Assembly: GCA_027492735.1 (NCBI GenBank)
Contig: JAPUEE010000015.1
Coordinates: 1 to 64,000, forward strand
Direction of reading: 5' to 3'
Length of the DNA: 64,000 nucleotides
Origin: Candidatus Saccharimonadota bacterium
GTDB lineage: Bacteria; Patescibacteriota; Saccharimonadia; Saccharimonadales; Saccharimonadaceae
In this document: piece after piece, positions 15,843 through 22,518 of the stretch
Layout: each line of letters opens with the position of its first letter
How positions within the stretch are numbered: position 1 is the first letter of the stretch
Made by a program: the position numbers and the translations under genes
Notes under the pieces: generated by a model
What the model was told of the DNA's origin: nothing
Database searches by the model: none
What the model saw: the letters and a program-made list of their open reading frames with translations, nothing else

Positions 15843-15872
15843 TTGACTTTTCCAATGGGGGGGGGGTATCAT
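15843..15872 (+). promoter_or_regulatory. Promoter of cassette B with a G10 tract in its spacer
   Basis: TTGACT at 15843-15848 and TATCAT at 15867-15872 are 18 bases apart, and the last ten spacer bases (15857-15866) are all G. Most other promoters in this window have a 17-base spacer. Loss of one G would give the usual spacing, so slippage should alter expression of the collagen-like operon. Downstream, TATAACC and GGTTATA (about 15881-15911) form an inverted repeat that could be an operator or a leader hairpin. Confidence 0.75.
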
Positions 15873-15955
15873 AGAAGACATATAACCGCAAGGGCTATCA
15901 TGCTTTGGTTATACCGCAAATAATTTACACTACACATGGAGGGAATTTTAATATT

Positions 15956-17119
15956 ATGACCAGACTACCAACACCAGGAGGAGACACCGGTGAATGGGGA
16001 CAAATCCTCAATGACTATCTCGCGGCGTCCCACAAGTCAGATGGTTCCCTCAAAGATGCCATCGTTACAGCAACCAACCTAGCTCCAGGCTCCGTCACTA
16101 CCGACACCCTTGCTCCTAATGCGGTGACTGCCGATACCATAGCCCCCGGTGCTATTACCGTTACTGAAATCCAAAACGAAACCATCACCGAAGACAAACT
16201 CGATGCAACGGTTCAATCCAAACTAAATTCAGGTGGTGGCTCGCCTGGAGCTACTGGACCAGCAGGACCAACCGGACCAACCGGACCAACCGGACCAACA
16301 GGCCCCGCGGGAGCCACTGGTGCTCAAGGTGCCCAAGGTATTCCTGGCACCAATGGGACAAATGGTACGGATGGTTCCATCGGGGCTACGGGGCCTACTG
16401 GCACCCAAGGTAACCCTGGAGTTACTGGCGCTACCGGTTCACAAGGTGTCCAGGGCATACCGGGAGCAAACGGCGCGACCGGTGCCACCGGACCAACTGG
16501 TCTGCAAGGTGCCGCAGGCACCCAAGGCTTTACCGGCTCACAAGGTATGACTGGTGCTACTGGCCCAACCGGTACAACTGGCTTAACTGGTCTCACTGGT
16601 GCTACAGGTCCTAGTGGTGTTCAGGGCCTCCAAGGTTTCACTGGTCCACAAGGTAGTACTGGAGCAACGGGCGCTACCGGACCATCTGGAACAGCCGGAT
16701 CTACTGGTGGCCAAGGCGCAACCGGACCATCTGGATCTAATGGAGCCACAGGCGCAACTGGCCCAAGCGGAACGACTGGTGCCCAAGGTTTCACTGGACC
16801 AGTAGGGGCGACGGGGCCGGCAGGGGCAACAACTATTGCCGGGATCTCTGGTTTACAAGCTGCTCTAGATAGCAAAGCCTCTACATCACATACGCATGCA
16901 GCCGGCGATATCACGTCTGGCACATTAGTACTCGATCGCTTGCCAGTCGGCAGTAGTTTTCGAGTGTATTACGATGGAACTAGTTGGAAATACGGCGGCA
17001 ATACTATTACGGCTCGGCCAACTTCGCGTACTGACCTAATAATGATTTGTGTAAATGAAGCAAATAGCGACGTACCAAGCTTTGCAATTGAAAATGACAT
17101 TCTGGAAAGGGTGGGATAA
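15956..17119 (+). CDS. Collagen-like / tail-fibre-like protein (cassette B)
   Basis: 387 aa from ATG 15956, with GGAGGG upstream; the in-frame ATG at 15905 is less likely because the paralogue at 19505 begins at the same point (MTRLPTPG). Order: head (residues 1-30), a repeat-like [21 protein letters not shown] linker, a Gly-X-Y shaft from about 98 to 292, then [20 protein letters not shown], a motif typical of phage tail fibres, and a globular end sharing RPTSRTD with the paralogue. No signal peptide or anchor is visible. Likely a trimeric shaft protein; how it reaches the surface is unknown. Confidence 0.82.
16257..16295 (+). repeat. 9-bp tandem repeat (GGACCAACC) in the collagen shaft
   Basis: GGACCAACC is repeated about three times in a row with flanking near-copies, encoding consecutive Gly-Pro-Thr triplets. 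Slippage would change shaft length by whole Gly-X-Y units without a frameshift. Confidence 0.65.
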
Positions 17120-18294
17120 TGGCGACTGCGCAGATATACCGCAAGACAGCAACGGGCGTGTGGCGGTCAGCGGGGCGCAGTGTGCTTGGCGATAGTGATG
17201 ATTTTGTTATGGACGTAACACAGCCGGTGTGGCGCGGTGCGGGTAACATCGCCAATAATGTCGGCCCAGCAACTACGAACTTCACGACTGTTTCCACGAT
17301 CACGCAGTCGAATGGTGCAACGTTTGAGAATCTCAAGATCACCAGTAAAGTAACTATTACTGCATCAAATCAGACCTTCCGTAATTGCTGGTTTGCCTAC
17401 ACGCAGACTAGCGGTGATAGTACAGGCGGTCAGGTTCAGACTAGCTTTACTAGTAATTACAATACAACGTTTGAGCGCTGTCTATTTCAGCCAGAGACCT
17501 ACTGGGACCGCTATAATGGCTTCTTTGGTGCTGGCGGAACGTTTACTCGTTGTGTGTTTACGCGCATTGTTGATGCCTTTGGCCTCTACTCCAACTCTGG
17601 TACAAATCAGAACGTTACCATTCAGGGCTGCTGGATAGGGCAGTTGTCGTGGTACGCTAACGATTATACTGTCGATCCGGCGGGCAATACCTATGCCTCA
17701 CGTGCTAATGGCCACAGTGACGGCACCGGAACACACAATGATGGCCATCAGTGGGGTGGCGGGGCAAATGTATCAATTCACGGCAATTTCTACCAATTGG
17801 CCAAGTTTAATGTCAAAAATCCAGGTAATGTGGTACTCGATGCCAACTGGCTTACGTACTCGATTGCAACTGGTAATGGTATTGACGTACTGAGTGACTC
17901 TGGTCCCAAATATCCAGGCCAGGGCCAGGCATTACTCGGACAAGCCAATGTATCTCCTATTACTTCGCTCGAATTTCATCACAACTGGCTTTGGAATGGT
18001 GATACTGGTTGCAAATTGGCTAGCACTGGCAGCGCTCAAGGAGGTACGGCTATTACCGCGAGTATCCACGATAATATTTTTGGTGGTCGTTGGCGTGATT
18101 ATGGCTATACCTACCATTACTATCCGATTCGCTTTGATACCGGCTGTATTGTCAATGGATTCCAGCCGTCAGGTGCCGGACAGTCATCTGATAATCATAA
18201 TAATGTTTGGGATAGCAACGTACCGTCCGATATGATTATTAGCGGCTCGCCGGTAGCCGGTAAACCAATTGTCTTGCGGTATGATGCCGTATAA
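17119..18294 (+). CDS. Right-handed parallel beta-helix protein (cassette B)
   Basis: 391 aa, start overlapping the previous stop by one base. It has short repeating rungs of the kind seen in pectate-lyase-fold proteins: VTITASNQTFRNCWF, NTTFERCLF, GTFTRCVFT, NVTIQGCWIG, NVSIHGNFY, NVVLDANWL, TSLEFHHNWLW. A His/Asp/Gly-rich stretch (HSDGTGTHNDGHQWGG) near residue 200 is a plausible active or binding site. The N-terminus (TAQIYRKTATGVWRSAG) is not a signal peptide. Such folds act as polysaccharide lyases or tailspike depolymerases; no catalytic assignment is possible here. Confidence 0.6.
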   Translation: MATAQIYRKTATGVWRSAGRSVLGDSDDFVMDVTQPVWRGAGNIANNVGPATTNFTTVSTITQSNGATFENLKITSKVTITASNQTFRNCWFAYTQTSGDSTGGQVQTSFTSNYNTTFERCLFQPETYWDRYNGFFGAGGTFTRCVFTRIVDAFGLYSNSGTNQNVTIQGCWIGQLSWYANDYTVDPAGNTYASRANGHSDGTGTHNDGHQWGGGANVSIHGNFYQLAKFNVKNPGNVVLDANWLTYSIATGNGIDVLSDSGPKYPGQGQALLGQANVSPITSLEFHHNWLWNGDTGCKLASTGSAQGGTAITASIHDNIFGGRWRDYGYTYHYYPIRFDTGCIVNGFQPSGAGQSSDNHNNVWDSNVPSDMIISGSPVAGKPIVLRYDAV

Positions 18295-18306: not shown

Positions 18307-19350
18307 ATGGCAACATTTTCTAACACATTTGAAGGCTTAACAAACGGAACAGCTCTGACGACCGCCAATACGGGCGGTAGTTCGGGCACGGCGGCCTACT
18401 CTATCGCAAATAGTACAAACAGCACTATTACCGCTAGTGCAGCGGCAGCCAAACATGGTGATATGGGGGTTATGTTCGCCTGTGCCGCTAGTGAAGGAGT
18501 CCCAAGTCGTGTCAGCTGGGCACTATCAGAACCTGGTCGGGCAGTTATTGACGCCTACTTTTACTTCCCATCTACCTTTAATGGTGGTAATATCGGTCTG
18601 CTTCATTTTCGAAACAATAGTGGCAATATGGGGTTATTGTACATTAATAATACTGGCCGGCTCTATGTGTCTGATGCCACAGGGTCGGGTGTTGGCGGTG
18701 CAAGCGGTACCTCGGTTCTGGCAATCGATACGTGGTATCGGATTAGCTTTGCTATTACCAAGGGTGCTGATACGTCAAGCGGTACGGTCGAGTGGGCATA
18801 CTTCTTGCCAGGATCTGATACGCCGATTGAGTCTAAATCGTATTCGGCAGCGAATACTGGTACGAGTAACGTAGCCTACGCCTTTTTGGGTGATACGACA
18901 TCTCGTAGCGCAACGCATACTTGGTATGCCGATACAGTTCGTGGTTCGTCGCTAGTTTCTGGCTGGCTATTAGCTTACCCAGAAAATAGTGTACCGATTG
19001 CAAATGCAGGATTCGACCAAACTGGCGTCGAACCGTACACGACAGTGATACTTGATGGCAGTGGCTCATCGGATTTCGACAACGATACGCTGAGTTATGC
19101 CTGGACGCAAACTGCCGGTGCATCGGTGACGCTTTCTTCGACTACCGCCACGCAACCGACCTTCACGGCGCCAGCGGTATTAAACGGTGATATGTTGACC
19201 TTTCAATTGATCGTTAACGATGGCGTGTCCGATAGTAATCCGGATACAGTGAGTGTCGCTATTGAGCCGCATACTATCTGGAAGATTACTAAACCTGGTG
19301 GTGTTCCGGCGGCCACTACTGCAATTCGCCGCCATGTTATCCACCCCTAG
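18307..19350 (+). CDS. LamG-like plus PKD/Ig-like domain protein (cassette B)
   Basis: 347 aa preceded by a strong AAGGAGGT site. Residues about 1-225 form a jelly-roll (concanavalin/LamG-like) module ending WYADTVRGSSLV. Residues about 232-325 form a PKD/REJ-like Ig domain: PIANAGFDQTGVEP, LDGSGSSDFDNDTLSYAWTQ, TFTAPAVLNGDMLTFQLIVN, NDGVSDSNPDTVSV. The paralogue at 20266 has the same order. No signal peptide or anchor. It is probably a carbohydrate-binding head working with the shaft and beta-helix genes ahead of it. Confidence 0.65.
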   Translation: MATFSNTFEGLTNGTALTTANTGGSSGTAAYSIANSTNSTITASAAAAKHGDMGVMFACAASEGVPSRVSWALSEPGRAVIDAYFYFPSTFNGGNIGLLHFRNNSGNMGLLYINNTGRLYVSDATGSGVGGASGTSVLAIDTWYRISFAITKGADTSSGTVEWAYFLPGSDTPIESKSYSAANTGTSNVAYAFLGDTTSRSATHTWYADTVRGSSLVSGWLLAYPENSVPIANAGFDQTGVEPYTTVILDGSGSSDFDNDTLSYAWTQTAGASVTLSSTTATQPTFTAPAVLNGDMLTFQLIVNDGVSDSNPDTVSVAIEPHTIWKITKPGGVPAATTAIRRHVIHP

Positions 19351-19418: not shown

Positions 19419-19449
19419 TTGACAACTTCGCCAGGGGGGGGGGTAAACT
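19419..19449 (+). promoter_or_regulatory. Promoter of cassette C with a G10 tract in its spacer
   Basis: TTGACA at 19419-19424 and TAAACT at 19444-19449 are 19 bases apart; ten consecutive G fill 19434-19443. A two-G loss would restore 17. The -10 is weak (four of six consensus bases), so TTATAA a few bases on is an alternative. The resemblance to the element at 15843 argues against coincidence. Confidence 0.7.
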
Positions 19450-19504: not shown

Positions 19505-20239
19505 ATGACCAGACTACCAACACCAGGATCAGACGAAGGCCAATGGGGACAAGTCCTCAATGACTACCTATCTGCCTCACACAAACCCGATGGTACCCTC
19601 AAAGATAATTCTATCCCAGAATCTGCCCTTACTACTACCGTCCAAACCAAATTAAATGCTGTTGCAGGTCCACAAGGCTCCACCGGCGCAACCGGACCTC
19701 AAGGTGCCCAAGGTGCTACCGGTGCGTCAGGCACCCCAGGCACCCCAGGCACCCCAGGCACTCCAGGTACAAATGGAATAAACGGAACCAATGGACAAGA
19801 TGGCTCCACTGGAGCTACCGGCCCTCAAGGTCCAGCTGGTGCTGATTCCACTATTCCCGGCGCTACGGGAGCCACAGGTCCCCAAGGCCCGCAAGGTGAA
19901 CCAGGTCCTGCCAGTACCGTTGGTCCTACTGGTTCCACTGGTCCGCAAGGTAATCCCGGTAGTACTGGTGCGACTGGTCCAACCGGTGCCACAGGAGCAA
20001 CCGGCGCACAAGGCGCCACTGGGGCAACCGGTGCTGCAGGTATGACGACGATAGAGGATTTGCCGGCAGGCGCTACTATTACTGTTGCAAAGAGTAGCGG
20101 AACTTGGCCAGCACGCCCAACTTCACGAACTGATATTATCGTGCAGTGGAAAGGTCCCGACCCATCACCGGCAATTGTCAGTTCAGGCACCGGCGGCATG
20201 CGTGACAATGTTGATATTCGCTTCGTAACCCCATCATAA
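19505..20239 (+). CDS. Collagen-like / tail-fibre-like protein (cassette C)
   Basis: 244 aa with GGAGGGAG before ATG 19505. It has the same head as cassette B ([29 protein letters not shown]), a short linker ([13 protein letters not shown]), a Gly-X-Y shaft from about residue 55 to 178, and a small end ([26 protein letters not shown]). The first 24 bases match cassette B exactly. The shaft has about 40 triplets, shorter than in B. No signal peptide or membrane anchor. A stalk function is inferred from repeat structure and from the binding-type proteins encoded next to it. Confidence 0.82.
19728..19763 (+). repeat. 9-bp tandem repeat (GGCACCCCA) in the collagen shaft
   Basis: Four consecutive near-identical 9-bp units encode Gly-Thr-Pro triplets. 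The last unit has one substitution. In-frame length change by slippage is possible. Confidence 0.7.
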
Positions 20240-20265
20240 ATTAAGTTAAAGGATACTCTTACACA

Positions 20266-21303
20266 ATGGCACTCAGACAAAACTCAGCAGAAGGCGGCAC
20301 TAATGGCCTCGTCGTCACCAGCGCTAACTCGGGCGGCGCATCTGGTACTGGTTTCAATACCGTTACGACGACCGGTTCACCGACTCGTGTGTATAGCTCG
20401 GCACAAAAAGCGCACGGCACCTTGTCGTACCAAGTTGCTGCTGCGGCAAGTAGCGCGGTCGACTTCGCCTTTGCGAGCTTTGCGGCCAATAATAGCCTAG
20501 CGCTGCGGTTTTATTTGTACCACACCACACTGCCAAGCAACGGACAACAAATTTTTCAGGTGTTCTATGGGGGTGGTACTGGTCCAGTTGCAGCGGTAGG
20601 TATTAGCGGTACTGGCCGCATACAAGTCATAGGCGCGGCAGCGACATTATCAACGTTTCCGACACCCCTAGTTGTCGGTACGTGGTATCGTATCGAAATG
20701 CAGTTGACCGTCGGTGCTAGTACTACCACCGGTAGCATCGCCTGCCAATACTATGTACACGACCAGACTACACCGGTTGACGCTGCGTATAGCTCATCGA
20801 CGGCCAATTTGGGTACGAATCCGGCCACAACCATCCATTTTGGTAAACTTACCCCTGCAGCAACGCTGGACAGTTTTTTCGATGATATTGCCTACGACGA
20901 TGGAGCAACTGCGCCGATAGGAGTATATGTTGCGCCAAGTCAGCCGCCTACGGCGAGCGCCGGTTTCAGCCAGACCAATATCGAACCGTATACAGTTATC
21001 TCACTGAGCGGTACTGACAGCGATAGTGATGGTACGGTTGTAGCACGCCAGTGGCGCCAAGTTTCTGGCGCACCATCAGTAACTATTGCAAACGCGACAT
21101 CGGCAAATGCAAGCTATACCGCACCAGGTACAATTGCCGGAACGTCACTCGTGTTTGGATACACAGTCACGGATAATGATAATCTTGACTCTACTGAGGC
21201 GACAACTACACACACAATACTGCCAGTTACCGAGCGCGCTGCAGTAGGTGGGGCGGAGGTGCCGGCTCGTATAATGATAGCGCAAAATGGAGGACTAGTA
21301 TAA
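20266..21303 (+). CDS. LamG-like plus PKD/Ig-like domain protein (cassette C)
   Basis: 345 aa. Residues about 1-222 are a jelly-roll module (ALRFYLYHTT, GTWYRIEMQLTVGAS, DSFFDDIAYDDG). Residues about 228-320 are a PKD-like domain (PTASAGFSQTNIEPYTVISL, DSDSDGTVVARQWRQ, ASYTAPGTIAGTSLVFGYTV). It is a clear paralogue of the protein at 18307 but follows the shaft gene directly rather than coming third. A weak GGA site precedes the ATG. No signal peptide. Carbohydrate or surface-ligand binding is inferred from fold only. Confidence 0.65.
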   Translation: MALRQNSAEGGTNGLVVTSANSGGASGTGFNTVTTTGSPTRVYSSAQKAHGTLSYQVAAAASSAVDFAFASFAANNSLALRFYLYHTTLPSNGQQIFQVFYGGGTGPVAAVGISGTGRIQVIGAAATLSTFPTPLVVGTWYRIEMQLTVGASTTTGSIACQYYVHDQTTPVDAAYSSSTANLGTNPATTIHFGKLTPAATLDSFFDDIAYDDGATAPIGVYVAPSQPPTASAGFSQTNIEPYTVISLSGTDSDSDGTVVARQWRQVSGAPSVTIANATSANASYTAPGTIAGTSLVFGYTVTDNDNLDSTEATTTHTILPVTERAAVGGAEVPARIMIAQNGGLV

Positions 21304-22518
21304 ATGAGTGAAGTTTGGACATCTAAAAACGGACAACTCGTGCGCAGAAATCGGACCTCAATTGATGGCGATGTAACCTATGACTCCAACGGACGACCAA
21401 GCGGCCCAGGATTCGTTCGGTATGAAGATTTGTATGTCTCTGGCGATACAGTAACAGATGCACTACGTCGATTATCGGAACCGGCCATTGTTACCTTTCC
21501 TGAAGGCACGTTTATGCTGAGTGGATTTCCTTATTACGGCGGAGCGATTGATATACCAAAAGCTCAAAATTGTTTGGGTATAATTGGCTCAGGCAAGGGT
21601 ACACTAGGGGGCAGCACCGGTACAATTTTTAAAATGGTTCCTAACACCTCTACATTTACAACCGGCACCTCGCCTGAAACACCCACGCAAGCGCAAGGTG
21701 GCACTACACAAGTCTGGATAATGCGCTGTGTCGGCACGCTCGGTTCGGTGAGATTTGAGAATTTCCAATTAGTTGGAGCAGCTGAGGGGCATAATTATGG
21801 TGGCTTGTACGTATATCACCCGCAGGGGGATGCGACTATTAGAAACGTATTGGTATGTGGAACAGAGGGCAACAATGGAGCGCCCCCTGGAGAAACTTTT
21901 GCAATTTCTATATATCAGGGTAATATGGGGAAGGCGCTTATTGAGGACTGCGAAGTCGATGGCCGACGTGTCATAGGAGGTGAATGGTTTGCGGCTGGTG
22001 GTATCACGTGCGGTCAGTCTATCGGCGCGGTTGTCAATCGTTGTACCGCACACCATCAACGTGCGTCTAGCCCGTTTGTCTTTTATCGGTCGTTTGATGG
22101 CACCTTGAACGATTGCGTATGGGGTACAACCGATCCCCTCCAAACTTCGTTATCTGGTGTGCGACCGGTTTCCGAGGTCAATGAAGAGGTTACGTCTGGT
22201 ATTGTTCACAATAACTGTACTTATAATCATTGCACGCCTAATTATGGAACTCATATTACCCATAGTAATAATCACATGGTTTGCCAATATACTGGCTGGC
22301 CAGCGCGTTCGTCCGTTAACGGTACGCTAAAAGTTGTCAATCCAACCTACAATAATATCTGGGGTGATAATAGAATGTACATATCATCATGGATAACTGG
22401 CGTTGATGGCACAACAAATGACGATTCGATGACTACTCCTCCGCTCGTAACACAGAGTGATGGCGTTACGCATATTCCTTATGTTTGGTCACATAGTACC
22501 AATACGGTTATTACATAG
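21304..22518 (+). CDS. Pectate-lyase-like beta-helix protein (cassette C)
   Basis: 404 aa, ATG one base past the previous TAA, with GGAGG about 9 bases upstream. The N-terminus has TSKNGQLVRRNRTS, then DALRRLSEPAIVTFPEGTFML, the usual entry to pectate-lyase/tailspike beta-helices (short DAL-x-L helix, then FPxGxYxL strand). Rungs follow: VRFENFQLVGA, ATIRNVLVCG, ALIEDCEVDG, AVVNRCTAHH, GTLNDCVWG, GIVHNNCTYNHC. Similar proteins occur as phage tailspikes and secreted lyases. No signal peptide. Enzyme activity cannot be judged. Confidence 0.65.
   Translation: MSEVWTSKNGQLVRRNRTSIDGDVTYDSNGRPSGPGFVRYEDLYVSGDTVTDALRRLSEPAIVTFPEGTFMLSGFPYYGGAIDIPKAQNCLGIIGSGKGTLGGSTGTIFKMVPNTSTFTTGTSPETPTQAQGGTTQVWIMRCVGTLGSVRFENFQLVGAAEGHNYGGLYVYHPQGDATIRNVLVCGTEGNNGAPPGETFAISIYQGNMGKALIEDCEVDGRRVIGGEWFAAGGITCGQSIGAVVNRCTAHHQRASSPFVFYRSFDGTLNDCVWGTTDPLQTSLSGVRPVSEVNEEVTSGIVHNNCTYNHCTPNYGTHITHSNNHMVCQYTGWPARSSVNGTLKVVNPTYNNIWGDNRMYISSWITGVDGTTNDDSMTTPPLVTQSDGVTHIPYVWSHSTNTVIT

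Follow-up and report, generated by a model that had tools for sequence, protein, structure and literature searches.

Homopolymers located between the -35 and -10 boxes are known from the promoters of the Neisseria surface protein genes porA (a T and a G tract) and fetA (frpB; a C tract), in which the spacing sets promoter strength (van der Ende 1995; Carson 2000; both as given in PMC5320596). Here we analysed a promoter of the same kind, with a tract of ten G residues (G10) between its boxes, upstream of a collagen-like operon at position 15843 of a 64,000-nucleotide stretch of DNA from a Candidatus Saccharimonadota bacterium (contig JAPUEE010000015.1, hereafter the window), which is contig 15 of an 817-kb assembly that is 97.6% complete. 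The tract is one of a genome-wide set and is probably the spacer, prone to slippage, of a sigma-70-type promoter; through such slippage, surface genes would undergo phase variation or tuning at multiple loci.

Neisseria has one or few loci per genome, with three transcriptional ones in the gonococcal strain of PMC5320596, whereas about 15 are present here; unlike in Neisseria, the present set consists of G tracts only, belongs to a lineage without MutS and MutL and is known from sequence alone. The arrangement of paralogous surface genes that each have their own promoter homopolymer is shared with the vlp genes of Mycoplasma, where it results in combinatorial expression (PMC10502178); the vlp tracts are poly-A and precede lipoprotein genes, whereas those described here are poly-G and precede two unrelated gene families. 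The C-stretch promoters of Bordetella fim2, fim3 and fimX likewise provide several fimbrial subunit genes with a promoter homopolymer each, and a one-base change of the tract accompanies a change in transcript level (PMC1891110); the present tracts differ in being placed between a TTGAC-type -35 box and a -10 box, and no activator site is known for them. Helicobacter canadensis also has G tracts (G13-16) in the putative promoters of genes for surface or secreted proteins, but only five of its tracts are in promoters and most are coding, and the length variation shown there was at the level of reads, whereas here it is at the level of paralogs (PMC2823697). Within the Patescibacteria (candidate phyla radiation, CPR), repeat-based hypervariation attributed to slippage or recombination has been described in Gracilibacterium, in this case of a coding 9-mer repeat in a single gene with no promoter involved (PMC6851277).

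Direct reading of the letters at 15843-15872 gave TTGACT, eight mixed nucleotides (nt), G10 and TATCAT. The 18-base pair (bp) spacer extends over 15849-15866, its final ten bases (15857-15866) being G only, and the site was the top promoter-like match of its intergenic region (10/12). The layout that a first-pass annotation of the window had claimed, TTGACT and TATCAT separated by 18 bases ending in ten G in front of a collagen-like operon, was thus borne out. The promoter and the first open reading frame (ORF) behind it consist of the following features:

15843..15848, + strand: -35-like hexamer TTGACT of cassette B (direct reading; 10/12 promoter match with 18-bp spacer)
15857..15866, + strand: G10 tract adjoining the -10 box (the genome has 21 such tracts)
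15867..15872, + strand: -10-like hexamer TATCAT (direct reading; TATCATAGAAGACA is common to the paralogous promoters L034, with G12, and L041, with G13)
15956..17119, + strand: collagen-like ORF with the MTRLPTPG N-terminal domain, ATG at 15956 (Pfam Collagen 7.9e-30; N-terminal family of n=10 copies)

The window contains just two G runs of at least 8, run lengths leaping from 5 to 10, and six overlapping G8 matches were counted against 0.47 expected from shuffles. The genome as a whole has 21 G runs of length 9-14; in the 276 kb fetched around these tracts, G runs of 1-6 (four of length 6) were followed by none of 7-8 and then by the 21 of 9-14. An exact TTGAC was located no more than 20 nt upstream of 13 of the 21 tracts, compared with a background of 2.2% (P ~5e-17), and two further tracts were preceded by TTGCAC or TTGCTT. 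Approximately 15 of the 21 sit between TTGAC-like and TA-like boxes, before surface-type gene families, so that a homopolymer of at least ~8 between -35 and -10, as in porA and fetA, characterises the window promoter and about 15 genome-wide. C tracts in the equivalent place, searched as a control, were absent from the genome (0 matches) and rare in relatives. Five tracts of the genome lack promoter context. G9-10 runs outside promoters were seen at L037:3266, L037:14664, L038:8658, L039:6357 and L033:4435, several of them within long open frames; these five could possibly be translational switches or ordinary coding runs.

The tract promoters of this genome serve two gene families, collagen-like MTRLPTPG proteins and type IV pilins. 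The situation known from vlp and fim, where each paralogous surface gene has its own promoter tract, was found for nine of the ten genes with the MTRLPTPG N-terminus (G9-14) and for four type IV pilin genes (GFTIIEVVLVLAIAGLIF) out of eight close copies. In addition, one tract stands before a degenerate pilin-like start, and at two more contig ends a promoter of the 15843 type is present with the contig breaking before the gene. As with porA and fetA, the collagen-like and pilin ORFs point to control of surface or host-contact genes, a surface location being predicted from domain content. Two further pilin loci were noted: the pilin behind a G9 tract at L096 (G000:C18:23047-23249) is frameshifted right after the conserved helix (GLIFSPSFSLSLLCKS), likely as a pseudogene or an assembly error, and a pilin promoter without G tract (L093, upstream of G000:C5:120509) has a T9 run in its spacer.

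Tract length differed in 7 of 13 similar promoter pairs. In the same genome, L011 (G12) and L041 (G13) have identical flanks and the window copy has G10; other copies with the same flanks were L001 (G11) and L019 (G10), L066 (G11) and L183 (G9; the G11/G9 pair of G081), and L106 (G10) and L148 (G7), the last two having spacers of 18 versus 15 bp. Copies with conserved flanks in the reactor metagenome-assembled genome (MAG) JAPUDS had G10, G10 and G7. Tract length thus varies among paralogs with the same flanks and is identical in one cross-dataset pair (below); the proposal of the first-pass annotation that slippage switches or tunes the operon is partly supported. In G319, two 98%-identical paralogs (L285 and L292) both have 17-bp spacing, one with a pure G9 and the other with an interrupted tract, GGAGGTGGG, a copy that looks like a locked version of a putative switch.

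Loss of mismatch repair destabilises homopolymers, and given that MutS and MutL are missing, each tract locus should drift independently. No MutS was found in the window's own genome or in any of 61 genomes tested, while 11 of 14 control genomes were positive; MutL was likewise not found in the window's own genome. These results agree with a report of Saccharibacteria without MutS and MutL (PMC8406219).

The G10 tract turned out to belong to a genome-wide multi-gene set, and its interpretation as part of a slippage-prone promoter is well supported, if indirectly. This interpretation builds on what was observed of the layout of the promoters, their enrichment across the genome, the classes of gene behind them, the differing tract lengths of paralogs and the absence of MutS and MutL. 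Strand slippage in replication would add or drop G residues in the tract, and the altered number of G residues would shift the -35 and -10 boxes relative to each other, in distance as well as in helical facing, by which transcription of the downstream surface-protein operon may be raised or lowered. With some 15 promoters of two unrelated families drifting independently, cells of one population would express different surface genes. We infer that slippage occurs within populations, and its benefit may lie in varied contact with host cells, or in evasion of phage or predators. We lean slightly towards a more far-reaching proposal, in which Saccharibacteria without mismatch repair run a genome-wide lottery of surface expression: about 15 pilin and collagen-like promoters would slip independently and be mostly off-optimum, each cell showing its own small subset of proteins and the population thereby containing variants for other hosts or for escape from phage or predators.

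Spacer lengths bear on which tract length would correspond to the ON state. Among tract-free promoters of the genome, 17 matches were obtained at 17 bp and 6 at 18 bp (~2-3 expected at each), and among those of relatives 29 and 10, respectively. The statement of the first-pass annotation that other promoters use 17-bp spacers therefore holds genome-wide, and seven of its nine named examples gave a 17-bp solution, with none near 2784 and 6286. The 13 tract promoters of the genome with an exact TTGAC had spacers of 17 (1), 18 (2), 19 (3), 20 (5) and 21 bp (2). Over 95 tract sites, 17 bp was found in 3 against 11 expected when tract lengths were permuted among sites (P ~0.0005); this shortage fits loci that are mostly off-optimum and is suggestive, not proof, because of the assignment of the -10 box and the G9 search threshold. 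Spacers of 18 bp were present in three of four tract-free pilin paralogs and in the sole tract-free collagen-like paralog. Because these copies use 18 bp and the interrupted-tract paralog of G319 uses 17 bp, the ON length is most likely 17-18 bp, and the 15843 promoter, at 18 bp, may be at or near it. The further suggestion, of a spacer one base longer than ideal and an optimum at nine G, is possible but not established, being favoured by the general peak at 17 bp and disfavoured by the 18-bp spacers of tract-free paralogs.

A scan of relatives from genera other than that of the window identified the pattern TTGAC-N2-12-G9 in 18 of 101 genomes, counting the window's own, several with 5-16 matches, and the reversed-pattern control was near zero. 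A stricter pattern including TATNNT was present in 25 of 295 genomes of the family, representing 14 of 61 genera (~49 matches compared with 2 control matches); a phylum-wide draw added four genomes outside the family, of which G433 has 4 sites. The compiled set comprises 120 distinct tract sites, downstream of which are genes for pilins, collagen-like proteins, IPT-type secreted proteins and many unknowns. A contig search returned Ca. Saccharibacteria relatives and no second strain of the same species. In genus g2 (for example, G319, G300 and G321), a secreted-looking protein family (VDVINITVPAACTLEGIGMNSH) has up to ~50 candidate copies per small genome, and a search of this genus with a 209-amino-acid surface-protein query gave many copies per genome, mostly without tracts. 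A DNA pattern scan also located the design on a viral-labelled contig (L305:2319-2344, IMG/VR contig 3300010167_000234), as TTGAC-AATA-G11-TATAAT.

Several observations weigh against a slippage-driven switch of surface genes. The -10 box is ambiguous for sites of the TATGG-TANNNT class. No obvious signal peptide was found in the MTRLPTPG proteins, so that their surface exposure is a prediction from domain content; a hydrophobic N-terminus was only moderately commoner in tract genes (34/86) than in window ORFs (11/50), which is a weak test; and many tract genes of other genomes lack an assigned function. Tract length was equal in 6 of the 13 similar promoter pairs, and the two copies of a 4.4-kb collagen-like locus (L124/L125), which come from MAGs of two datasets and are 99.98% identical, both carry G10. 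This locus was found in search genomes of two genera (G180 and G127), so its sharing would reflect cross-binning or recent transfer. Equal lengths in these pairs and across two datasets would be expected of a fixed structural or regulatory element, such as stiff A-like DNA or a poly-G regulator site, that co-regulates surface genes without its length acting as a switch. Conservation of the design across two gene families and the presence of G rather than C on the coding strand are also compatible with such an element, but it is unlikely, as tract length spans 7-14 and is not the same in copies whose flanks are identical, tract-free paralogs retain a normal spacer, and the geometry is not fixed because pre-tract length and the distance from tract to -10 box vary freely among sites.

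The variation observed is only between paralogs and species, which would also suit a rheostat without true switching, where lengths diverge over evolutionary time and tune the copies while slippage is too slow for mixed populations. We regard this as rather unlikely, since tracts of G9-14 without MutS and MutL are expected to be unstable, as is established for mismatch-repair-deficient bacteria, and short, possibly stabilised G7-8 runs are missing in the genome. G homopolymers are error-prone in sequencing and several contigs of G006 start or stop at a tract, but an assembly or sequencing artefact, or chance, deserves almost no weight: different projects have yielded dozens of genomes with a consistent promoter context, the reversed control was near zero, and an error of 1-2 bases cannot make a G10 run here. 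For the existence of the tracts, artefact and chance are excluded, with exact lengths uncertain by ~1 base. Contig ends at tracts were considered as a sign of polymorphism and set aside, as shared repeats could explain such breaks.

The putative slippage-prone design occurs a second time in the window, in a G10 promoter that is absent from the first-pass annotation. At 19419-19449, TTGACA is followed by nine nt, G10 and TAAACT, upstream of a paralogous collagen-like ORF at 19505, and the cassette behind it (19505-22518) is built from the same kinds of parts as the first, namely collagen-like, PKD-like and no-family ORFs. The remaining features of the two cassettes are:

17119..18294, + strand: second ORF of the first cassette, without Pfam family (Pfam search)
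18307..19350, + strand: third ORF of the first cassette, PKD-like domain (Pfam K319L-like PKD 7.3e-14)
19419..19424, + strand: -35 box TTGACA of the second tract promoter (direct reading)
19434..19443, + strand: second G10 tract, spacer of 19 bp (G-run count)
19444..19449, + strand: -10-like TAAACT of the second tract promoter (direct reading)
19505..20239, + strand: second collagen-like ORF, same N-terminal domain as the 15956 ORF (Pfam Collagen 4.2e-18; alignment)
20266..21303, + strand: PKD-like ORF of the second cassette (Pfam 5.4e-10)
21304..22518, + strand: final ORF of the second cassette, without Pfam family (Pfam search)

PHROGs tail-fibre matches probably reflect collagen-repeat composition, and the cassettes were not classed as phage; viral contigs searched with the MTRLPTPG alignment gave no match.

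The bacterium is tiny and belongs to the Saccharibacteria, a large, mostly uncultured group whose members live attached to other bacteria. The first-pass annotation knew of no phase-variable promoter described in Saccharibacteria, and none was found for Saccharibacteria or Patescibacteria in the open-access literature either, most subscription papers lying outside the search. The kind of mechanism is already known, and its occurrence in Saccharibacteria as a set of promoters across the genome seems to be undescribed in the literature searched; if the reading is true, Patescibacteria would have their first described system of phase-variable promoters. Type IV pili drive Saccharibacteria episymbiosis (PMC12206443). 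Little is understood of host recognition by episymbiotic Patescibacteria or of the diversity of their surfaces. If pilins and adhesin-like proteins were indeed under a built-in switch of random expression, this would explain clonal heterogeneity.
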